A stretch of DNA of 64,000 nucleotides from Methylonatrum kenyense (GTDB lineage: Bacteria > Pseudomonadota > Gammaproteobacteria > Nitrococcales > Aquisalimonadaceae), in NCBI RefSeq assembly GCF_023195885.1, contig NZ_JALPKO010000011.1, forward strand, positions 1-64,000. The letters run 5' to 3'. The notes under the pieces are model-generated. The model had not been told where the DNA came from. It made no database searches and worked only from the letters and a program-made list of their open reading frames with translations. The position numbers and the translations under genes are program-made. This document shows positions 52,511-64,000 of the stretch, one piece after another (the first letter of the stretch is position 1; every line of letters begins with the position of its first letter).

Positions 52511-53779
52511 TTAAAGACTGTCGCAATTACCGCCCGGTATACAATAGTTAAAGCCACTGTTCATGAAAAAAATGTCCGGATTTCCGAATACCTCGTCACT
52601 AGCAGACGTTAAGGCATCTCCGCAATCGTCACTGTCCGTTATCAGAAAATCATGCCCCAAGTCGTCGTCAGAGGAGAAATCTTCGCCAAACCCAAGATCG
52701 GTCAAATCCATCTCCTCAATCGGGCGCCCGAAATCGACGCGCTCGACCCCTCGCTCCGGATGTCTACCGATCCCGATAGCTTTTTCCGAACCGGAATCGA
52801 AGCCACGATAACGTCTCACGGCACTCAGGAAGGGCTCCCGAGAATCCCAGCTCTCGATATCCGTTTCGTCTGGATCTCCAACACAGACGGACAAATCATC
52901 AAGAACACCCCCTGCCCGCGGTCGTAACTCAATATTTCCGTACCAACCCACACCGACAAAACATCGGTAAAAAATCGCGTCTACCTGCTCATTAGGTCCA
53001 GCCTGGGACCAGACCGTGTCCTCTTCCTCGAATATATTTGTCGTAACGCAGGATGCGCCCTCACCAGGGCCGATGAAATATTCCCTTAGATCCTCAGACG
53101 CTCCTGATTGAAGAACAACTCCACTAATCGTGCTGAAACCCGGATTTTCCGGCATTTCCATAATCAGTAAGAGACCGCCGTCCGGACCAACCACCTCCGT
53201 ACGATCCCCCTCTCTCAAAACCTGCGTCCCATCCGGAAAACCTTCGACACTCTCCGGGCTCGCCATCGGTGTTTCACCGAACCCCGGTGTTCGCGCCATA
53301 CCGGAAGATTTGGGAATCGGGTTCGGTGAAGGAAGCCGACCTCGCGCAAGGTTCACCGCGTTAATTGCCGTCTCGCTCAGAACATGAGTCGCGATGTTCA
53401 ATTCCTGAAGATCACCACGAACATCTTGCCATGCAATAGAAACGTCCACGTTTAGCTGCCGTTCGTTCTCGGCATCTTCTTCAACGTTTAAATCGACATC
53501 AAATGTAGCGTTGACTCCCTCTACGCCTGTTCGCGGGTGATCACTCATCACTTCAAGAATTTCGGCACCACTCAATGAGTTCCTTACCCGCTCCACCGTA
53601 GAGTCCGCCAGTTGGATAGCCTCTGCCCTGGCCTTCGACTCTCCAGTTGCAGCCGTAATTTCACCGTGCATCCGGAACACAGCCAGAAGTCCAATCGAGA
53701 TGATTGCCACGCCGATAAGTGCATCGATTAGACTTATTCCCCGACAAGCTTTGTGGTTCCGCAACTTGGCTGTAATCAT
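52511..53779 (-). CDS. pilV: Large PilV-like minor pilin
   Basis: This 422-residue protein has the prepilin cleavage and helix motif CRGISLIDALIGVAIISIG, in which Asp replaces the usual Glu at +5. PilV proteins are normally under 200 residues. Here the N-terminal pilin is followed by about 250 extra residues rich in Asp, Ser and Gly, with paired cysteines near the end (CGDALTSAS, NYCIPGGNC). It is the last gene of the fimT-pilW-pilX-pilV operon. The DNA is visibly richer in A/T than neighbouring operons. Confidence 0.8.
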   Translation of the reverse strand: MITAKLRNHKACRGISLIDALIGVAIISIGLLAVFRMHGEITAATGESKARAEAIQLADSTVERVRNSLSGAEILEVMSDHPRTGVEGVNATFDVDLNVEEDAENERQLNVDVSIAWQDVRGDLQELNIATHVLSETAINAVNLARGRLPSPNPIPKSSGMARTPGFGETPMASPESVEGFPDGTQVLREGDRTEVVGPDGGLLLIMEMPENPGFSTISGVVLQSGASEDLREYFIGPGEGASCVTTNIFEEEDTVWSQAGPNEQVDAIFYRCFVGVGWYGNIELRPRAGGVLDDLSVCVGDPDETDIESWDSREPFLSAVRRYRGFDSGSEKAIGIGRHPERGVERVDFGRPIEEMDLTDLGFGEDFSSDDDLGHDFLITDSDDCGDALTSASDEVFGNPDIFFMNSGFNYCIPGGNCDSL

Positions 53780-53804
53780 TATTTCTTCCTAGCTAGTAAA
53801 CGCG

Positions 53805-55049
53805 TCAGTCAGTCGAAATCCAATCTCTCCACGAACCTGAGTCGGCTGATCGAATACCGGAACCTCCAGCTCGCTGGACTGCTAACGGATCAAAAATAAA
53901 ACTGGGCGTACCAAATATATCCGTTTCCGTTTCTTCAAAAATTCCGTCACCTTCCACAATCACAGAGCCGTAAAAAACCGGATTACCGCGCGCTGTCAGA
54001 TCTCCCGTCACATACAAAATCCCATGAAACTCTTCGAAATTTCCTCGAACTGTAAGGTTTCCGTCGACAATCACGACAGCGGGGTTTTCCCTAGAACCGA
54101 CGGAACCGTCTAGCCTGGCAGAGCCATCGACCCAGGTCACCTGGCCCCACATGCTCTCGTCAATACTAATATTCCCGCCATTCAAGCTATGTGAAACCAT
54201 CGTTTCTCGGTAGTCACTCTTCCCCATGCCCAGAAACCCTTCAAAAAACTCGTCTTCACCGATCTGTAACGCCTTGTCTTCAAAAAGCTCCCGACTCCCT
54301 TCTCTCGCACGGTGATCTCTGTCACGCATTGACCTCCGATCATAAAAATCATCACCTGGAGGTGGAACCGGGTCACTTAATGCTGGCGGTTCGGACCCCG
54401 GAAACCGAGTGTACAGGCCCGCTGCATTACCGCTTATTATCGGTTCCGAGCCCGTTCGAATCGTCTGATCACGATATGCGTTATATATATTGGCGTTACC
54501 CCTAAAATCGACCATTCCGCGGGCGATAAAAGGCACGTCCGGCTCACTTGCGACGGTCGGACCCGCGCGCATACTTACCATGATTGCCTTTCTAGACGAT
54601 CGGTCGTCACTCCAGCCGCAACTAAGGATTACTGCCTCTCTCAAATCTGAAGCCCTAAACCCTTCCACCGCTGACGTCGGGAATGTCGCCGTCGGGAGGG
54701 CTGGACACAAATCGTCTAGTCCGGAAAAGGTTTCCCCCGCCACATCGAGTGTTAGAAAAACTGTTCGATACGTAGCGCGTCCGTTCTCATCGGCATCTGG
54801 CCGAAGGTCATCAGGAGTGTTACTAATTTGCATGTGGGCCATTGCCCGCTCGACACCACCTTGTGCCGCGAAGGCAGTCTGTTTCATGCGGAGTTCGTTA
54901 GCAGACATCCTCTGTTCCAGAATCCCTGTCTGAGCCGTGAAAAGCACAACAAGGGTCACGGCGACAAGAAAAACAATCGCCGTGAAAACCGTAACGACAC
55001 CACGTTGGCCCCTACCAAAAAACTGATTGGTCTCATTCATGGGTAACAT
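53805..55049 (-). CDS. pilX: Large PilX-like minor pilin with beta-helix-like C-terminus
   Basis: This 414-residue protein has the PilX N-terminus RGQRGVVTVFTAIVFLVAVT, cleaved after Gly and lacking Glu at +5, as in PilX. Most PilX proteins are under 200 residues. The last third has short, regular strands (AVVIVDGNLTVRGNFEEFHG, LYVTGDLTARGNPVFYGSVI) like a small beta-helix or bactofilin-type repeat. ATG at 55049 is chosen because AGGTTGGGG lies upstream; 55040 is possible. It lies nine bases after pilW. Confidence 0.8.
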   Translation of the reverse strand: MLPMNETNQFFGRGQRGVVTVFTAIVFLVAVTLVVLFTAQTGILEQRMSANELRMKQTAFAAQGGVERAMAHMQISNTPDDLRPDADENGRATYRTVFLTLDVAGETFSGLDDLCPALPTATFPTSAVEGFRASDLREAVILSCGWSDDRSSRKAIMVSMRAGPTVASEPDVPFIARGMVDFRGNANIYNAYRDQTIRTGSEPIISGNAAGLYTRFPGSEPPALSDPVPPPGDDFYDRRSMRDRDHRAREGSRELFEDKALQIGEDEFFEGFLGMGKSDYRETMVSHSLNGGNISIDESMWGQVTWVDGSARLDGSVGSRENPAVVIVDGNLTVRGNFEEFHGILYVTGDLTARGNPVFYGSVIVEGDGIFEETETDIFGTPSFIFDPLAVQRAGGSGIRSADSGSWRDWISTD

Positions 55050-55058
55050 TGCCCCAAC

Positions 55059-55871
55059 CTACGGTTCAAAAATCCGGTTATTCTTCACGCCAACAATTTC
55101 CTCGAAAGATATTGTTGATTCCGGATTCGTCGCGTGATCCGCTCGCATAATAATACGCACACGGCGTGACTCAATTGATATATCCTCTTCGCCAGCCGTT
55201 CCCTCGTCACATGCGCTTTCTTCGCCGGATGAGGAAAACGTCAGACAGACGGAGGAGTCCATATCGAAGCGCAACTCTCGGATACGAGTTGTATCGTGGT
55301 CTGTTAAGCGAACCCATTGCGCGGATCCCGGCGGGCTGTCTCCGCAGTTATCAGTTGAATTCACGTCTCCAGCAGGGTCACTTAGCATTTCCAATTGGTC
55401 GCCGCTCTGCCGGTAGCCAAAGACAAATTGTGTCCCTGCATCACCCGGCCATGTCGCGTCTTGACCGGGATTATAGGAAAAGGTGGGGTCATAACTGAGC
55501 ATGACACATCTTCCATCGTTCAAAACCTGAATATTCCGAATGCCATCAGGAACACTCGATTGGCCTGGCCAGGATGCTTGAGTTGTCATGAACGGGTTCA
55601 GTGGTGGCCGACCATTTCGCCCTTCAATATGAGACGGATGCGAATAACCAGACCGACGAATATCGGCAGCCATGAGATCCATCGCAATACGGGTTTCCTG
55701 CGTCAGGCGGGCTTCGGCGGTAACGAATGCTGCGCCGCGGATTACCGTTATGTATAGTGCAATGATCGCCCCGACAGCGACTAAACCCACGACGAGACCG
55801 ACCATTAGCTCGACCAGGGTGAAACCGCCAGATTTAGGTTTAAACGCCAACTGATTTATTCTCCTTAGCAT
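55059..55871 (-). CDS. pilW: PilW-like minor pilin
   Basis: This 270-residue protein has the class III signal GGFTLVELMVGLVVGLVAVG with Glu at +5, cut by PilD, and a C-terminal domain with cysteines. PilW helps start pilus assembly. The ATG at 55871 overlaps the end of the fimT gene by seven bases, which is consistent with co-translation. Confidence 0.85.
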   Translation of the reverse strand: MLRRINQLAFKPKSGGFTLVELMVGLVVGLVAVGAIIALYITVIRGAAFVTAEARLTQETRIAMDLMAADIRRSGYSHPSHIEGRNGRPPLNPFMTTQASWPGQSSVPDGIRNIQVLNDGRCVMLSYDPTFSYNPGQDATWPGDAGTQFVFGYRQSGDQLEMLSDPAGDVNSTDNCGDSPPGSAQWVRLTDHDTTRIRELRFDMDSSVCLTFSSSGEESACDEGTAGEEDISIESRRVRIIMRADHATNPESTISFEEIVGVKNNRIFEP

Positions 55872-56404
55872 TGGCGGTATGCTCCTAAGGGTCTGTCCAC
55901 ACCGCAAAGTCTTGGGCGCCCTATCGGATTAACCTCAAGTCGCATCTGAAAATTGTTTGGAGACGAGGTAAACGTAATCGATCGAGCCTGACCGCCCAGC
56001 AATGTGCCGCGAACAGAATCGAATTCTATTACGCCATCATTGACACCATCGCTTTCCATTGCGATGTTTCTAAACGCTTCGTTTGACGTCCGGATTTCCG
56101 AAGGCTCCTCATTACCCGCAAGAACGAGGGAACAACTTCCGGTTTCGCTGCAGCTGCAAGGCCCCTGGGAACTGATCCCATGGCACCATTCACCGCCGTT
56201 ACCTTCGCTCACCAGGAAAATGTTACGTCCCTGCTTTATCGCCTCGGTTCGGGCGAGCTGCACGTGATTAAGCATATCTTCGGCTGCGCCGATCGTGCGC
56301 CTCTGCTCGATCTGATTGAATGCGGGAATTGCCACGGTTACGAGAATCGCAAGCACCGCTATCGTGACCAACAGTTCAATAAGCGTAAAACCGTCTCGCG
56401 TCAT
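55865..56404 (-). CDS. fimT: FimT/GspH-family pseudopilin
   Basis: This 179-residue protein has the prepilin motif DGFTLIELLVTIAVLAILVT and the GspH/FimT C-terminal domain with Cys-rich stretch CHGISSQGPCSCSETGSC. It is the first gene of the minor pilin operon and diverges from the pilE-like gene; the 219 bases between hold their promoters and are A/T-rich. Confidence 0.87.
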   Translation of the reverse strand: MTRDGFTLIELLVTIAVLAILVTVAIPAFNQIEQRRTIGAAEDMLNHVQLARTEAIKQGRNIFLVSEGNGGEWCHGISSQGPCSCSETGSCSLVLAGNEEPSEIRTSNEAFRNIAMESDGVNDGVIEFDSVRGTLLGGQARSITFTSSPNNFQMRLEVNPIGRPRLCGVDRPLGAYRQC

Positions 56405-56623
56405 GATGTGTTGTCAATCCCTTGGCGGAGGCGCAGTGGGTAACAAGGTTTTGGGTCTCCTTGTCAGTATACGGAGTCTCCATGCCCCAAGATATTGGTT
56501 TCACGGGGGTGATTGACCACTCAGACCGCGGATTCAACCGCCCATCGGAAAGCTGGTTTGAGACCGGGTGCCTGTGATCAAATACGAGACGAGAGTTCGA
56601 ATATTGGATTTGGGGGCTAATTT

Positions 56624-57025
56624 ATGACTCGGTGGCGAGATAGCTTCATTGGCTTTACCCTCATCGAGTTGATGATAGTCGTCGCTGTGGTCGCCATCCT
56701 CGCGGCAATCGCCTACCCATCTTATGAGAGGTATGTACTGCGCTCTCAGCGGGCGGACGCACACGACGCAATCCTGCGCATCCAGTTGGCACAGGAGCGA
56801 TGGCGTGCAAATAATGCAACGTATGCGGCGGAAGGCGAGTTACCCGAGGAGCTTTTAACCTCTTCCGACGAACATTACACGTTGGGCGTGTCAGGCGAAT
56901 CTGGATCTAGTTACACCATTACGGCAACGCCACAGGGGCGCCAGGGCAACGACGCATGTGAAAGCATCACGCTGGAGGTCACCGGAGGAACGTCCAACCG
57001 AGGGCCTCGAGACGAATGTTGGTAA
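56624..57025 (+). CDS. pilE: PilE-like type IV pilin
   Basis: This 133-residue protein has the signal IGFTLIELMIVVAVVAILAA with Glu at +5, then YPSYERYVLRSQRADA, as in PilE-type minor pilins. A pair of cysteines (NDACES, DECW) marks the C-terminal D-region. It is alone on the plus strand; in Pseudomonas pilE follows pilY1 in the same operon, but no pilY1 is present here. Confidence 0.87.
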   Translation: MTRWRDSFIGFTLIELMIVVAVVAILAAIAYPSYERYVLRSQRADAHDAILRIQLAQERWRANNATYAAEGELPEELLTSSDEHYTLGVSGESGSSYTITATPQGRQGNDACESITLEVTGGTSNRGPRDECW

Positions 57026-57055
57026 AAGGCGAGGGAGCACGTTCTTTCCGTCATT

Positions 57056-57586
57056 CTAAAGGCAATGCAACACCTCACTCCGCGGGCGCCCAACCGCACT
57101 CACAATAACTCGCCTGCCCTCCGCCGATGCGCAGACCTGGATACTCCCCATCTGCAGTGCGCCGTTAAGCCGCTGCGTTGTCCCGCGCTCGACGTACGAC
57201 ACGTAGCGCCTTACCGGCGTGTTGGCGGTGATCGTTATTCCCCGCACGTCCATATCCTGGAAAGCAATCAAGGCATCCTCATCGCTTGGCTCGCCCACGG
57301 CCGTTGGGTCGGCGAAAAGCAGCCAGCCAGCGGACCAGTCGCCATCATCCCGGCAGGAAAGCCCGTCACTTGAAGGGCAAACAGTGACTCGGTGGCCACG
57401 CTTCAGAGCTTCACTACGGGCGTAGTGCATGGAATTGAGCAGGCTGTTGGTGGCGCCGATCATGCGTTGGCGATCGACGAACTGGGTCATGCGGGGGACC
57501 GCCATCGAGGCGAGGATGCCAAGCACGGCCAGTGCTACAACAAGTTCGATCAGGCTCAGTCCCGAGCCACGAAGTCGGGTGTGCAT
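57056..57586 (-). CDS. GspH/FimT-family pseudopilin (second copy)
   Basis: This 176-residue protein has the prepilin motif GSGLSLIELVVALAVLGILA and the GspH domain (NSMHYARSEALKRGHRVTVC). It converges on the pilE-like gene with 30 bases between. Its base composition is closer to the host average than that of the fimT-pilV operon. Confidence 0.86.
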   Translation of the reverse strand: MHTRLRGSGLSLIELVVALAVLGILASMAVPRMTQFVDRQRMIGATNSLLNSMHYARSEALKRGHRVTVCPSSDGLSCRDDGDWSAGWLLFADPTAVGEPSDEDALIAFQDMDVRGITITANTPVRRYVSYVERGTTQRLNGALQMGSIQVCASAEGRRVIVSAVGRPRSEVLHCL

Positions 57587-57747: not shown

Positions 57748-57823
<76 letters not shown>

Positions 57824-58001: not shown

Positions 58002-58811
58002 ATGAGCTTTCTCGAAATCTTCGTCCTCGCCATCGTGCAGGGGCTGACCGAATTCCTGCCCATTTCCAGCGCCGGCCATCTGATCCTGGTTCCGCTTCTG
58101 ACCGGCTGGGAAGACCAGGGCCTGGCATTCGATCTGGCGGTGCATGTGGGCAGCCTGCTGGCGGTGCTGATGTACTTCCGGAAGGAACTTCATGTCATCA
58201 CCTACGATTGGTGCCAGTCGGTGGCGACACGGCGGCAGACGCCGAATTCGCGTCTCGGTTGGGCGGTGCTCTGGGGTACGGTGCCGGTTGGCATCTTCGG
58301 CTTGCTGCTGAAGGACCTGGTGGAGGTCACGCTGCGCACGCCGGAAGTGGGCGCCATTGTCATCGCCTGCTCGCTGATCGGCTTCGGCCTGCTGCTGGGG
58401 CTGGCGGACTGGAAGTTCCGGGGCGAGCGTTCCGAATACGAGATGACCTGGAAGGATATCGCCATTATCGGCTTCGCCCAGGCCATCGCGCTGATCCCCG
58501 GCACATCACGTTCGGGCATCACCATGACCGCAGCCCTCTTCGTGGGCATGAGTCGCGACGCCGCCGCGCGCTTTTCCTTTCTGCTGTCGATCCCGGTCAT
58601 CGTCCTGGCCAGCGGCCTGCAGGTGATCGATCTGGTTCGTGACAGCAGCGGCGTGGCATGGGGTGCGATGGGGCTTGGCATCATCCTGTCGGGCATCAGC
58701 GCCTACCTTTGCATCCATTACTTCCTGACCTTCATCAAGCGCATCGGCATGCAGCCTTTCGTGGCTTATCGCGTCGTGCTGGGCATCATTCTGCTGATGA
58801 TTTTCCTTTGA
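58002..58811 (+). CDS. uppP: Undecaprenyl-diphosphatase (BacA)
   Basis: This 269-residue membrane protein has the two BacA motifs: AIVQGLTEFLPISSAGHLIL (residues about 10-29) and IALIPGTSRSGITMTAALF (about 160-178). It recycles the lipid carrier for peptidoglycan and other envelope glycans by removing a phosphate. Length is normal. It precedes the O-antigen ligase-like gene. Confidence 0.96.
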   Translation: MSFLEIFVLAIVQGLTEFLPISSAGHLILVPLLTGWEDQGLAFDLAVHVGSLLAVLMYFRKELHVITYDWCQSVATRRQTPNSRLGWAVLWGTVPVGIFGLLLKDLVEVTLRTPEVGAIVIACSLIGFGLLLGLADWKFRGERSEYEMTWKDIAIIGFAQAIALIPGTSRSGITMTAALFVGMSRDAAARFSFLLSIPVIVLASGLQVIDLVRDSSGVAWGAMGLGIILSGISAYLCIHYFLTFIKRIGMQPFVAYRVVLGIILLMIFL

Positions 58812-58883
58812 AGAAGCGGGTGCAGGCCGGCGATTTTCGGTAACCTTGATGATTTAGATTCCCGACGCCGGTTGACCGTCCCC

Positions 58884-60239
58884 ATGCACCACATCGCCCC
58901 GCGCCTGCGCGGTCCGCTGCCCGACACACTTAGCCTCTGTGGCCTCTTCGCCGCGGCATTGCTAGCGGGCGCCCATTGGTATGGTTTTCTCGGCGCGATG
59001 GCGGTGCTGACCCTGGCGACGCTGCTTGATGTCCGCCGGGCCTGGCCGCACCTACGACGGCAGCCGCTTTTCTGGCTGGCGATCGCACTGACCGTCTACA
59101 TCCTGATACACACGCCGCTGGCCGTGCGTGAGTTCCCGGTGCTGGCGCAGAACACCTTCCCCGACTGGACCGACCTGCTGGCAATCAGCGGTCTGCTCTC
59201 GATCATTGCCGGCTACTGGCTGGCCCGCCATCTGCGCCTCTATCCCTATCTGCTGGCGGTCACGGCGGCTGGCATTGCCATCGGCCTGGCACTCGGAATC
59301 GAGTGGCAGAACCTCTGGGAGCGCGGTCTGGGCGTGCGGCGGGACTGGGGTTACATGCCGGAACAGGTGGGGCTTCTCTCCGCGATGGGCTTTCTCGGCT
59401 GCGTGGTGCAGTTCCTGCGCCAGCTTGCTGATCGGCAACACCGCCATAACAGCCGCATCCTTCGCGCCCTGCCCTGGTTTCTGGCTGCGCTGGCCTTCGC
59501 CATCGTGCTGTACGGCACGCAGACGCGGGCAACCTGGATTGCGGCGGCGGTGCTCGCGCTGATCTACATGGGCTGGCATCTGCTGGTATCACTTCGGCAA
59601 CGGCAGGGTTTGCGCTCGGGCATTGCCGCCCTGTGTGTTCTGGCCGTTGGTGTTGCCGCACTGGTGCAACTGGATGGCGGCGAACGGCTGGAACGCCGCT
59701 TGAGCGCCGGGCCGGATACCGTTGCCGCCCTGGTCATGCTGGACCGTGAGGGGGTCTACCGCAGCAATCCCTCGCTGGGCGTACGCCTGAACATGTGGAC
59801 CGAAGCCATGCGCGCATTCAGCCAGCGCCCGATTCTGGGCTGGGGCATCGGTGCCAAGGTGGTCACCGATTCACAGGCCCAACTGGACGTGGGCTGGCGG
59901 CAACCGCAGTACCATAATCTGTACCTGGAATTCCTGCTGGGGCTGGGACTGGTCGGCTTTCTGCTGTTTCTCGCCATCTGTGCGTTGCTGATCCGCCCCT
60001 TGCTGCCCGCCCCGTTTGCGCGAACCCATCCCGGCATCGGCGGTGACCCGCCAGCGCCCAGCCGCACCATCCTCTCCCTGTGCGCTGCCCTGACCGCCTT
60101 TGCCGTGCTGTTCGAGTTGCAGGTGGGGCACCCGTTCAGTCGGGCCATGGTGATCTGGCTGATGGCGCTGCTCGCGGGCCTGGCGCTGCATCGCCCGGCA
60201 GGTGATGCGGTGCCGGAAGCCCGCTCAGGCGCCGTCTGA
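58884..60239 (+). CDS. O-antigen ligase family membrane protein
   Basis: This 451-residue protein has about 11-12 membrane helices with the Wzy/WaaL-type block GTQTRATWIAAAVLALIY and a large periplasmic loop with SLGVRLNMWTEAMRAFSQRP, followed by YHNLYLEFLLGLGLVG. Members transfer or polymerise surface polysaccharides; ligase versus polymerase cannot be settled here. ATG at 58884 is chosen over TTG at 58872. The end overlaps that of the GalU-like gene by 15 bases. Confidence 0.85.
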   Translation: MHHIAPRLRGPLPDTLSLCGLFAAALLAGAHWYGFLGAMAVLTLATLLDVRRAWPHLRRQPLFWLAIALTVYILIHTPLAVREFPVLAQNTFPDWTDLLAISGLLSIIAGYWLARHLRLYPYLLAVTAAGIAIGLALGIEWQNLWERGLGVRRDWGYMPEQVGLLSAMGFLGCVVQFLRQLADRQHRHNSRILRALPWFLAALAFAIVLYGTQTRATWIAAAVLALIYMGWHLLVSLRQRQGLRSGIAALCVLAVGVAALVQLDGGERLERRLSAGPDTVAALVMLDREGVYRSNPSLGVRLNMWTEAMRAFSQRPILGWGIGAKVVTDSQAQLDVGWRQPQYHNLYLEFLLGLGLVGFLLFLAICALLIRPLLPAPFARTHPGIGGDPPAPSRTILSLCAALTAFAVLFELQVGHPFSRAMVIWLMALLAGLALHRPAGDAVPEARSGAV

Positions 60240-61136
60240 AGGGGAATCCAGCCGTCCCGAGGCCAGCAGTTGCCGCAAATAGGCACGGGTCTCGCGCCGC
60301 AGGTCCGGACGCCGCAGGGCGTAGGCGAGGGTCGCCTGCAGATAGCCGAGCCGCGTGCCGCAATCGAAGCGTTCGCCCACGTACTCGTAGGCGTACACGC
60401 CTTCGGAGGTGAGCAGCCTTGCGATGGCGTCGGTGAGCTGAATCTGGCCGTCGGCGTCCGGCGGCATACCCTCGAGTGCATCCAGAATCGCCGGCGTGAA
60501 GACGTATCGCCCGATCACGCCAAGCCGTGACGGCGCCCGCGACGGATCCGGCTTCTCGACGATCGCGTCCACATTGTGCAGCCGACCGTCGCCCGCCCGG
60601 ACACCGACGATCCCGTAAAGGCTTGTCCTGTCGTCCGGGACGCGCTGCACGCCGATCACCGAGGCGTGATTCCAGCTGAAGGCATCCATCAGTTGCGATA
60701 ATGCCGGCCTGCCATTGGAGGCGGCAATCAGCTCGTCGGCCAGCACCACGGCGAATGGTTCGCCGCCGATCGCGGCACGGGCGCAGAGCACTGCATGACC
60801 AAGGCCCAGCGGGCGGGGCTGGCGCACGAACAGGCAGCGAACATGGGCAGGCGTGGTTCCCCGGGTTGCGTTGAGGAGGTCCTGCTTCTCCGCCTGCTGC
60901 AGGCGCTGTTCCAGTTCCTTCGCGCGGTCGAAATGATCGGCAACGGCCCGACTCGTGCGGCCGGTGACAAAGATCAGATTTTCGGCGCCGGAGGCCACCG
61001 CCTCTTCCACCGCGTACTGGATCAGCGGCTTGTCCAGCACCGGCAGCATGACCTTCGGGCTGGCCTTGGTGGCGGGCAGGAAGTCGGTGCCATGCCCGGC
61101 CACCGGGAAAACCACCGTCCGAACGTGATCAGTCAC
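60225..61136 (-). CDS. galU: GalU-like UTP-glucose-1-phosphate uridylyltransferase, signature Arg replaced
   Basis: This 303-residue protein has the GalU fold and blocks: DKPLIQYAVEEAVASG, GLGHAVLCA, VEKPDPSRAPS, IQLTDAI and RFDCGTRLGYLQA. The N-terminal signature, normally GxGTRxxPxTK with PKEML, reads GHGTDFLPATKASPKVML: Asp replaces the Arg that contacts phosphate and Val replaces Glu. It may be inactive, or changed in substrate. GTG at 61136 has AGGGG upstream; a TTG at 61154 overlapping the previous stop is the alternative. Co-transcribed with the phosphatase-like gene. Confidence 0.82.
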   Translation of the reverse strand: MTDHVRTVVFPVAGHGTDFLPATKASPKVMLPVLDKPLIQYAVEEAVASGAENLIFVTGRTSRAVADHFDRAKELEQRLQQAEKQDLLNATRGTTPAHVRCLFVRQPRPLGLGHAVLCARAAIGGEPFAVVLADELIAASNGRPALSQLMDAFSWNHASVIGVQRVPDDRTSLYGIVGVRAGDGRLHNVDAIVEKPDPSRAPSRLGVIGRYVFTPAILDALEGMPPDADGQIQLTDAIARLLTSEGVYAYEYVGERFDCGTRLGYLQATLAYALRRPDLRRETRAYLRQLLASGRLDSPSDGA

Positions 61137-61150
61137 GGCGCCCCTGGCAC

Positions 61151-61612
61151 TCAAACAAGGCGTTTCACCCAGTCGTCAACCGCCTGCTCGATCCGCTCCA
61201 CCACCTCCAGGTAGGTTTGGGGGTCCTTGCCGGCGGGGTTGTTGACCACCAGATCCGACCAGTGCCCAAGCGTGTAGATGCGGCCCCGCAACTGCGGGAT
61301 GCGCCGTTCGATCCAGAGCTTCTGGCCCTTCTCCATGACAAAGATCAGATCATGCGCCTGGCCAAGCTCCAGCGTCAGGGTTGGCTGCTCCTCGCCGTTC
61401 AATGACAGCCCCCGTTCCCGCATCAGTGCTACCGCCTGCGGGTCAGCCGGCGACTGATCCTGTGTACCGATGCCAGCGGCATTGACAGTGAACGCACCAT
61501 CATCCGGCAGTTTATCGGTCAGGAGGGCTGCAGTTATCAGGGCACGGCAGCGGTCAGCACCGCCAACCACAAGTAGTTTGCGGAACATGGCTCCGGCTTG
61601 CAGCGTCGACAT
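61151..61612 (-). CDS. LMW protein-tyrosine-phosphatase-like protein without catalytic Cys
   Basis: This 153-residue protein matches low-molecular-weight tyrosine phosphatases in length and order, including DPQAVALMRERGLSLNG, HDLIFVMEKGQKLWIERRIP and LGHWSD. The P-loop, normally VCxGNICRS, reads VGGADRCRA at about residues 16-24. The nucleophile Cys is Gly, and the late acid motif DPY is NPAGKDP. It should be unable to dephosphorylate by the usual route. Wzb-type phosphatases act in capsule control. Start at 61612 has GGAAG six bases upstream. It is divergent from the DUF2868 gene. Confidence 0.82.
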   Translation of the reverse strand: MSTLQAGAMFRKLLVVGGADRCRALITAALLTDKLPDDGAFTVNAAGIGTQDQSPADPQAVALMRERGLSLNGEEQPTLTLELGQAHDLIFVMEKGQKLWIERRIPQLRGRIYTLGHWSDLVVNNPAGKDPQTYLEVVERIEQAVDDWVKRLV

Positions 61613-61820
61613 GCGTGTCTTCCGACCTCTTGAAAGGAAAGTTCGCCGCACCGTCGAACGAGGGCCGAGCACGGGCCACCGCGGTTGAACAACCGGAGCA
61701 GCGGAACGGCCAATCGATCAAGGGGCACATGCGATATAACCCAATCACCTTATGGTGACGATAAGTGGGACGCAAGCATCCATCCTTGCAGTCGTGAACT
61801 GCTTCCGTTATCACCGCTGC

Positions 61821-63314
61821 ATGACACGACTGCGCCAACTGCTGCTCGCCGAATCGCTGCGCCATCACCCCCGGAGCAAAACCGTTCCCGGCGAGCCGGA
61901 AAGCCTGCGAGAGATCGCGAACCAGAGCACAACGGTCGAGGATCGACTTTTCCGTCTGGCCCGCGCGCACCCCTCTGCCGATGCCCTCAGACCCCTGATT
62001 GATCGATTGCTGCAGGGTCTGCGCTTGTTTGCCCTTGGAACTGTCATGCTCGGCGGCCTGCTCGGACTTGGCGCCGCCGGCTCGGCCCTGGGTACCGGCG
62101 GCACGCGGCAGGTCGAAGCCCTGCTGCTGTTGTTGCTGCTGCTCGGGCCACCGCTGTTCGCACTGGGGTTGCTGCTCATTCTGCGAGTCTGGCGCCGCCA
62201 GGTGCGCGGCCAGGCAATCGGCGGCCTGGCCGGCCTGCTACTCACGCCGACCCTGGCGGGTCTGTTGCGGCTGCATGGCGGCAGCCCGGAGGACCGGCAG
62301 GCGGTCGCCCAGGGCTCCCGGGCCGTCGCCGCCCAGCATGGAGCCGGCCTTCGGCTGCTGACTCTGTATGCCCACCTGCTATGGGGTGCCTACGCGTCAA
62401 GCGCCCTGCTCGCCTGTTTCCTGATCCTGACATTCTCCCAGTACGACTTTGTCTGGGGCAGCACCCTTTTCGACGCCGAACCGATCCTGAACCTGCTACT
62501 GGCCATCGGCTGGCTGCCCGGACTGCTGGGCTTTCCGGTACCGGACGCGGCGGTGCTGGACCAGACGCGGCAAGGCATCGGCAGCGTCAGCGCGGCCGCG
62601 CGCAGCACCTGGGGCTGGTTCCTGTTTGGCGCGATCCTGGTATACGGCCTGCTGCCGCGGCTGGTATTGGCCATCGGCACACTGCTGGGCCTGCGCCGCG
62701 CGGTCAACCGCCTGGCGCTGGATATCGCCCTGCCCCATTACCAGCGGCAACTGCTGGATCTCCGCGGGGCCGCCGGCGAACTGGACCGCCACGGCGCCTC
62801 ACCGCCCGACCCGGCATCGAACACGGGCGGTGAGGCGCCGCGGGTCTTTGGCAATGGCCCGCATTACGCACTGGTCGGCCTGGAACTGGATCAGGCAGGC
62901 GACTGGCCGCCGGCATTCTGTGGTGCCGACTGCCTTGCCCTTGCCCATATCCGAACGCGGCAGGACCTGCGCCAGGCGGAGAGCGCGTTGCGGGGGCTGA
63001 GCCCGCGCCCGGTCTTTCTGGTGATCCTGGTGTCGTTGTTGCGCAGCCCCGACCGTGGCAGCGCTGATCGCCTGCACCGGCTCATCCAGGCCGGCGGCGT
63101 GCCGGCGCTGCTCCTGCTGGGTGAACACCATAGTTTTGTGGAACGTGGCGGCGACGTATCCCGGCGCGCGGCGGACTGGTGGCAACACGCGTCCCGCGCT
63201 GGTGCGCTGGCTCACCTGGTCGCCGACGAGGCAAGCCTGCGGCGGCTGGACCGGGACCAGATGCAGGCGATGCTGCGCGGCGCCGGAACCGGTGAACGAG
63301 GCGAAGCCCCATGA
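61821..63314 (+). CDS. DUF2868 membrane protein
   Basis: This 497-residue protein has a short N-terminal soluble part, about five membrane helices between residues 70 and 320, and a soluble C-terminal region (GNGPHYALVGLELDQAGDWP, LSPRPVFLVILVSLLRSP). DUF2868 is encoded next to DUF3482 GTPases in many proteobacteria, as here (stop and start overlap in ATGA). The role is not established; an envelope or membrane-tension function is a guess. ATG at 61821 is preferred over the distant upstream start. Confidence 0.87.
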   Translation: MTRLRQLLLAESLRHHPRSKTVPGEPESLREIANQSTTVEDRLFRLARAHPSADALRPLIDRLLQGLRLFALGTVMLGGLLGLGAAGSALGTGGTRQVEALLLLLLLLGPPLFALGLLLILRVWRRQVRGQAIGGLAGLLLTPTLAGLLRLHGGSPEDRQAVAQGSRAVAAQHGAGLRLLTLYAHLLWGAYASSALLACFLILTFSQYDFVWGSTLFDAEPILNLLLAIGWLPGLLGFPVPDAAVLDQTRQGIGSVSAAARSTWGWFLFGAILVYGLLPRLVLAIGTLLGLRRAVNRLALDIALPHYQRQLLDLRGAAGELDRHGASPPDPASNTGGEAPRVFGNGPHYALVGLELDQAGDWPPAFCGADCLALAHIRTRQDLRQAESALRGLSPRPVFLVILVSLLRSPDRGSADRLHRLIQAGGVPALLLLGEHHSFVERGGDVSRRAADWWQHASRAGALAHLVADEASLRRLDRDQMQAMLRGAGTGERGEAP

Positions 63315-64000
63315 ACGATCCGCGGCGCCCCCGGACAAGCTTCACCGAATTGCATATCCTGCTGGCCGGTCACACCAATGTCGGCAAGACATCGTTGCTG
63401 CGCACGCTGGGACGGCTATCGGACTTCGGCGAGGTCTCCGCCTCGCCCTCCACCACCCGCCAGATCCAGCCGCTGCCGTTGATCGAGACCGATCAACTTC
63501 GCATCGTCTTTTTCGATTCCCCCGGGCTGGAGCAGACGGAGCCCCTGCTGGAGCAACTGGACGCCGGTCCGGACCGGCGGCATAGCCACAGCCAGCGTCT
63601 GCGCGCCCTGCTCGATGAGCCGGCGCTGCAGCACACCGCGGAGCAGGAACTGCGCGTGCTGCGGCAGGCCCTGGACTGCGATGCCTGCCTGTTCGTCATC
63701 GATGCCCGCGAACCGGTGCTGGAGAAGTACCTGGATGAACTGTTCATCCTGTCGCGCACCGGGCGCCCTCTGCTTCCCCTGCTCAATTTCACGGCAGCGG
63801 CGGATAGTCGTGAACAGGAATGGCGCGACGCGCTGCGCTCCCAGGGTCACGCGGTCACGGTGGCCTTCGACGCAGTGGTTTACAGCTGGGAGTCGGAACG
63901 CAGGCTGTATCGCAGCCTGGCTGCCGTGTTCCCGGCGGCCGAACAGGCACTGGACGAACTTGTCCGGCTGCGCTCCCGGGAGACGGACTGGCGGCTGGAT
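63311..64000 (+). CDS. DUF3482-family GTPase, partial at window end
   Basis: The first 230 codons are present and the gene runs off the window. Walker A is LLAGHTNVGKTSLL, Walker B/G3 is VFFDSPGLEQ, and CLFVIDAREPVLEKYLDEL follows, as in DUF3482 and Era/YihA-like GTPases. G4 reads as PLLNFTAAADS rather than NKxD. It is coupled to the DUF2868 membrane protein by an overlapping start. Confidence 0.88.
   Translation, partial: MNDPRRPRTSFTELHILLAGHTNVGKTSLLRTLGRLSDFGEVSASPSTTRQIQPLPLIETDQLRIVFFDSPGLEQTEPLLEQLDAGPDRRHSHSQRLRALLDEPALQHTAEQELRVLRQALDCDACLFVIDAREPVLEKYLDELFILSRTGRPLLPLLNFTAAADSREQEWRDALRSQGHAVTVAFDAVVYSWESERRLYRSLAAVFPAAEQALDELVRLRSRETDWRLD

Follow-up and report, generated by a model that had tools for sequence, protein, structure and literature searches.

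A Wzb-type phosphatase and a GalU paralogue, both stripped of catalytic residues, form an operon-like pair that may regulate glycan supply

Introduction

What does a Wzb-type LMW tyrosine phosphatase (LMW-PTP) do for a bacterium once its catalytic residues are gone? The question is raised by a gene, here called PTP*, in a 64,000-nucleotide stretch of DNA from Methylonatrum kenyense (the window), whose product had been proposed, from the letters alone, to be a binding or regulatory pseudophosphatase in a glycan locus, perhaps one that senses phosphotyrosine. That original prediction noted only the loss of nucleophile and acid, and missed that the GalU-like neighbour, here called GalU*, is a pseudoenzyme candidate as well, which shifts the picture from a single dead phosphatase to a possible paired module. 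Pseudophosphatases and GalF-type proteins are already known kinds of protein. In the literature searched we came across no account of an LMW-PTP-fold pseudophosphatase from bacteria, and three things appear to be new: a conserved Wzb-type pseudophosphatase, a separate GalF-like protein with loss of R21, E238 and E32, and the presence of both in one operon.

Results and discussion

A Wzb fold without the Wzb active site

By profile and fold, PTP* belongs to the LMW-PTP (Wzb) family. Its LMWPc domain scores 61.1 bits (E = 1.8e-16; cut-off 23.2; Pfam PF01451), its closest solved relatives are Wzb proteins (PDB 2wja, E = 2.3e-15), and its AlphaFold2 model (mean pLDDT 87.7, pTM 0.85) superposes on crystal structures of E. 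coli K30 Wzb with TM scores of 0.85-0.86 (0.86 for 2wmy) and an rmsd of 1.6 Å, a predicted structure that agrees with the earlier statement that the rest of the fold is well kept. Wzb/Etp LMW-PTPs (PF01451) are its nearest sequence relatives and share with it fold, length, Cys14-Arg15 and the LGHW and RG motifs; unlike them, PTP* has replacements of the nucleophile Cys, the acid Asp, the loop Gly, Asn and Ser, Tyr117, H63 and R66, and has no wza or wzc adjoining. An N-terminal extension, MSTLQAG[A/T] (61589-61612), precedes the usual family start MFRK and is near-invariant in the three orthologues; AlphaFold2 confidence is low for residues 1-5, and the extension is possibly a conserved docking tail.

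A close-relative scan of about 85,000 species genomes returned two orthologues of PTP*, at 86% and 76% identity, both from Ectothiorhodospiraceae metagenome-assembled genomes that represent further species of the window's genus, as judged by whole-genome search. Aligned to and numbered by the E. coli K-12 Wzb sequence, the P-loop of PTP* reads GGADRCRA against CVGNICRS, and the D-loop NNPA against PDPY. The orthologue P-loops are GGADRCRA and GGTDRCRA, both with NP for DP, so that where an active LMW-PTP has CxGNxCRS with its nucleophile Cys, and DPY with its general-acid Asp and Tyr, all three PTP* have GG[A/T]DRCRA and NP[A/V]. The changes C9 to G, V10 to G, G11 to A/T, N12 to D, I13 to R, S16 to A, D115 to N and Y117 to A/V are thus found in 3/3 proteins, as is the retained pair C14 and R15; the Cys-to-Gly change, the lost acid motif and the surviving second Cys-Arg had all been read correctly from the window. 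The Gly is conserved in both orthologues found (2/2), which rules out a recent loss from relatives with a normal Cys, and the losses are not a sequencing artefact, because three independent genomes agree.

The degeneration extends well beyond nucleophile and acid. At 36 (near-)invariant alignment positions, defined from 12 canonical relatives in other genera, the PTP* trio keeps 16, has lost 17 in all three proteins and is mixed at 3; the kept positions are mostly scaffold, plus Cys22 (Wzb Cys14) and Arg23, and those lost in all three include, in Wzb numbering, C9, G11, N12, S16, H63, A65, R66, D115 and Y117. The full motif is present in all 13 of the nearest canonical Wzb-type relatives, from other genera (the 13th being L070). 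No degenerate loop was found among the wider homologues read at class level, which all have CxGNxCRSP, and the matches of a plasmid tblastn search all lay below 60% identity. In K30 Wzb, backbone groups of the loop and the side chain of the Arg bind the phosphate, the Cys is the nucleophile and the Asp serves as acid (PMC2777267); the D-loop Tyr of Wzb flanks the substrate ring (PMC7948962). On the residues that it lacks, we judge PTP* to be almost certainly dead as an LMW-PTP.

Dead does not mean unable to bind: the C9A mutant of Vibrio vulnificus Wzb has phosphate bound in its crystal structure (PMC7948962), and loss of the Cys alone could therefore leave a phosphotyrosine reader. As such a reader or decoy, PTP* would bind the phosphotyrosine tail of a BY-kinase without cleaving it and so shield it; the XrtA-associated tyrosine autokinase would be one candidate. 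The retained loop Arg15 and Cys14 suit this role, as does the XrtA/PEP-CTERM exopolysaccharide locus of the same genome, which includes a tyrosine autokinase. However, most other phosphate-contacting, phenyl-contacting or invariant loop positions are replaced in all orthologues, unlike in a simple trap mutant, and the kinase locus lies elsewhere in the genome. The suggestion of phosphotyrosine sensing is weakened by the replacement of G11, N12, S16, H63, R66 and Y117 and by the Asp now in the loop; we consider simple phosphotyrosine reading possible but not the leading model, and the decoy role unlikely to be right.

Conservation under selection

Pairwise dN/dS (NG86) of PTP* across the three species is 0.08-0.19 at dS 0.79-1.26, in the range of the adjacent ligase (0.15-0.23) or below it, with dS near saturation in these comparisons and with three orthologues from one genus, mostly in draft or metagenome genomes. 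The same losses in the orthologues, together with the low dN/dS, mark PTP* as what we infer is a functional gene fixed in a dead state, not a pseudogene: as in a pseudophosphatase, the catalytic residues are lost, and fold and gene are conserved under selection. STYX, a eukaryotic pseudophosphatase, has Gly in place of the catalytic Cys; it differs from PTP* in that its phosphate-binding loop is otherwise intact and in that it binds phosphoproteins. PTP* resembles STYX-type pseudophosphatases in the Cys-to-Gly change, the kept fold and the conservation, although these belong to a different phosphatase superfamily. Of the earlier proposal of a binding or regulatory pseudophosphatase, the predicted inactivity, the kept fold, the conserved Gly and the purifying selection stand, and the phosphotyrosine part is the one that has lost ground.

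A degenerate GalU as operon partner

The probable GTG start of GalU* lies 14 nt past the PTP* stop codon. GalU* scores 308.2 bits with the NCBIfam galU model, just under its cut-off of 326.8; the GalU on contig C25 scores 362.9. Its nucleotide-binding motif reads GHGTD...PKV in the window and GHGTH...PKV or GHGTH...PKA in the orthologues, against a canonical GLGTR...PKE, and all other GalU read have GLGTR (or GMGTR) and PKE. With the E. coli GalU and GalF sequences as rulers, the trio shows R21 replaced by D/H/H, E32 by V/V/A and E238 by Q/Q/Q, so that the R21, E32 and E238 of GalU are missing in 3/3; among comparison GalU proteins, R21 and E32 are present in 31/31 and E238 in 30/31. Retained are K31, Q109, G114, D137, G179, E201, K202, Y218 and D265, which include Glc-1-P, Mg and other active-site residues. 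Also altered, besides E238, are E69 and K/R85, all three being subunit-interface positions in Klebsiella GalU (PMC11796359), and mixing of GalU* with GalU may thus be impaired.

The activity to be expected can be gauged from mutants: in K. pneumoniae GalU, replacement of E238 by Ala, Gln or Arg abolishes activity, and R21A and E32A bring it down to 4.6% and 1.4% of the wild-type level (PMC11796359), and in E. coli GalU T20M/R21H lowers activity about 500-fold (PMC4643126). GalU* very probably keeps a few percent of GalU activity at most. Each of the three genomes encodes an intact GalU at another locus (G000:C25, G002:C131 and G001:C116), so that cells are not bound to rely on GalU*.

In the tree, GalU* forms one clade with full support on a long branch, and its dN/dS is 0.10-0.16 at dS of about 0.8-1.3 (true GalU, 0.06-0.09). 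A DNA pattern for AGxGT[D/H]xLP[A/V]TK matched the window alone among 369 class-level and 399 phylum-level sampled genomes, so this form of the motif is rare. The fourth genus genome carries a second, fast-evolving GalU (L052, G003:C27:1029-1955, minus strand) that retains R21 and E32, has Ile at E238 and is changed at 16 of 119 otherwise invariant residues; it groups with GalU* at 92/83, flagged as two long branches meeting. It could be a further GalU that is partly dead, and might be the sister of GalU*.

Two further readings of the pair can be weighed on these residues and rates. Decay towards loss, already disfavoured, would explain the long branch and the absence of both genes from the fourth genus member, but dN/dS lies below 0.2 at near-saturated dS, the frames are intact and the same kinds of substitution are fixed in three species, leaving this reading next to no chance. 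Alternatively, both proteins could have gained other activities, GalU* on another nucleotide, say, and PTP* in redox chemistry at Cys14; K31, D137, E201, K202 and D265 are kept in GalU*, as are Cys22 (Wzb Cys14) and Arg23 in PTP*. The residues lost are, however, the nucleotide-positioning and the nucleophile and acid groups, and apart from the loop Asp and Arg no replacement looks newly catalytic, so that we regard new enzymes as distinctly improbable.

Likeness to GalF and other paralogues

Like GalU*, enterobacterial GalF is a dead GalU paralogue whose gene lies by glycan genes; both have replacements at R21 and E238 and keep the Glc-1-P lysine, and the R21-to-His change of GalF recurs in 2/3 GalU*. 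GalU* differs in keeping T20, A118 and G179, in having lost E32, which GalF keeps, and in having Gln rather than Arg at E238; of the five active-site changes of GalF (M17, H18, S115, S177 and R237 in K. pneumoniae), GalU* shares no more than altered R21 and E238 sites. By profile it is not GalF (208 bits against a cut-off of 659), and judged from this score and its 56% similarity to the local GalU, GalU* would have arisen independently of GalF. E. coli GalF has an activity about four orders of magnitude below that of GalU and has been proposed as a regulatory subunit (PMC4643126; PMC11796359), although the authors of the Klebsiella study doubt stable GalF-GalU hetero-oligomers (PMC11796359). 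The large subunit of potato ADP-glucose pyrophosphorylase is likewise a nucleotidyltransferase paralogue in which the same Arg (a Lys in potato) is lost and whose function is modulatory (PMC4643126); there, in a plant, the hetero-oligomer is demonstrated, whereas one containing GalU* is a prediction.

Locus and genome context

The genes around the pair are listed in Table 1. The order uppP, O-antigen-ligase family, GalU* and PTP*, DUF2868, DUF3482 is conserved in the 86% relative, and the 76% relative has the same order for the part present on its contig. A fourth genome of the genus (86% complete) lacks PTP* and the neighbouring ligase and DUF2868 genes, which may mean either that the assembly is incomplete or that the whole block is truly missing. 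PTP* and GalU* co-occur throughout, both in three genomes and neither in the fourth, and would constitute a genus-specific, operon-like pair of two pseudoenzymes.

Table 1 Features of the PTP*/GalU* region (window coordinates).
Feature	Position	Strand	Remarks
UppP-type undecaprenyl-diphosphatase (presumed)	58002..58811	+	assigned by eye from sequence; synteny kept
O-antigen ligase / Wzy_C family membrane protein	58872..60239	+	convergent neighbour; synteny kept
GalU*	60225..61136	-	GalU paralogue, R21D/E32V/E238Q (E. coli GalU numbering); GTG start probable
Degenerate nucleotide-binding motif of GalU*, AGHGTDFLPATK	61065..61100	-	
PTP*	61151..61612	-	153 aa from ATG; predicted dead Wzb-type LMW-PTP; loop VGGADRCRA; NP replaces DPY
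PTP* residues 125-127, N-P-A (canonical D-P-Y)	61232..61240	-	acid and substrate-stacking Tyr lost
Degenerate P-loop, PTP* residues 17-26	61535..61564	-	GGADRCRALI replaces CxGNxCRSPx; coordinates from ORF start 61612
DUF2868 membrane protein	61752..63314	+	divergent neighbour; then DUF3482/GTPase gene (63311-)

The description of the surroundings as a glycan locus holds, if modestly: uppP and the O-antigen-ligase-family gene adjoin, but wza and wzc are absent. In the loci examined of the window's genome there is no wza-wzb-wzc set, and a capsule locus with wzc beside PTP* is absent, the BY-kinase-type gene sitting in the XrtA locus on another contig. That locus (L081, G000:C28:43500-54400) encodes an export protein, a chain-length determinant, a tyrosine autokinase and exosortase A; GalE and GMP/PMI genes lie upstream of it. 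Two other LMWPc-family genes occur in the genome, of which one resembles a canonical phosphatase and the other ArsC. In a sister genus (G007), canonical Wzb sits with what we take, by eye, to be Wza and Wzc. GalU beside Wzb as an ancestral pair was also considered, and no GalU was seen next to the canonical Wzb genes whose flanks were read.

Near the O-antigen-ligase-family gene lies a run of type IV pilus minor-pilin-like genes (52511-57586; N-termini like FimT, PilV, PilW, PilX and PilE), and pilin glycosylation could be considered as a role for the ligase-family gene. A tRNA gene (57751-57823, minus strand) separates the pilin cluster from uppP. The DUF2868 and DUF3482 GTPase genes (61752-64000) overlap by 4 bases and are a conserved pair, divergent from PTP*/GalU*.

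Whether the two pseudoenzymes act together is a separate matter. GalU* could be a GalF-like modulator and PTP* an unrelated adaptor, co-transcribed by history only; no fusion or structural evidence of contact between them was found, and wzb and galF are neighbours in enterobacteria too, as in E. coli group 1 capsule loci (PMC6128206). Such separate roles, which we hold to be rather improbable, are at odds with the joint occurrence of the two genes, their close spacing and the parallel catalytic loss in 3/3 species. For the enterobacterial wzb and galF products, we know of no contact.

Proposed role

Both proteins being without catalytic residues, they may serve as non-catalytic regulators of cell-surface sugar supply. 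We posit a module in which PTP* and GalU* would regulate, without catalysis, the supply of UDP-glucose for surface glycans. In GalU* the Glc-1-P and Mg residues stay and the UTP-side residues are lost; it would for that reason most likely resemble GalF and serve as a sensor, or as a partner that modulates the intact GalU encoded at another locus. PTP* would most likely be a binding or scaffold protein, its partner perhaps being GalU* or GalU, with a place in glycan control that goes back to Wzb but without the chemistry. A link of tyrosine phosphorylation to UDP-glucose enzymes has a precedent in E. coli, where BY-kinases regulate Ugd (PMC2516531). The absence of wza and wzc from the locus and the altered interface positions of GalU* count against a regulatory module, and we put at a little under one half (about 45%) the probability of a regulatory function of the pair in UDP-glucose or glycan supply. 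In a more specific version, tentative and unlikely, PTP* and GalU* would make up an obligate complex, of single origin in the genus, that detects Glc-1-P or UDP-glucose and adjusts how active the true GalU is.

Conclusions

The role left to GalF after the loss of its activity remains a matter of dispute. In the case described here, a separate lineage would have made a GalF-like protein of its own, with two of the same key positions lost and with an operon link to a Wzb-type phosphatase that is itself apparently dead. A second, independent dead GalU by glycan genes would make a regulatory role for such proteins more credible, and offers a system in which that role can be tested.
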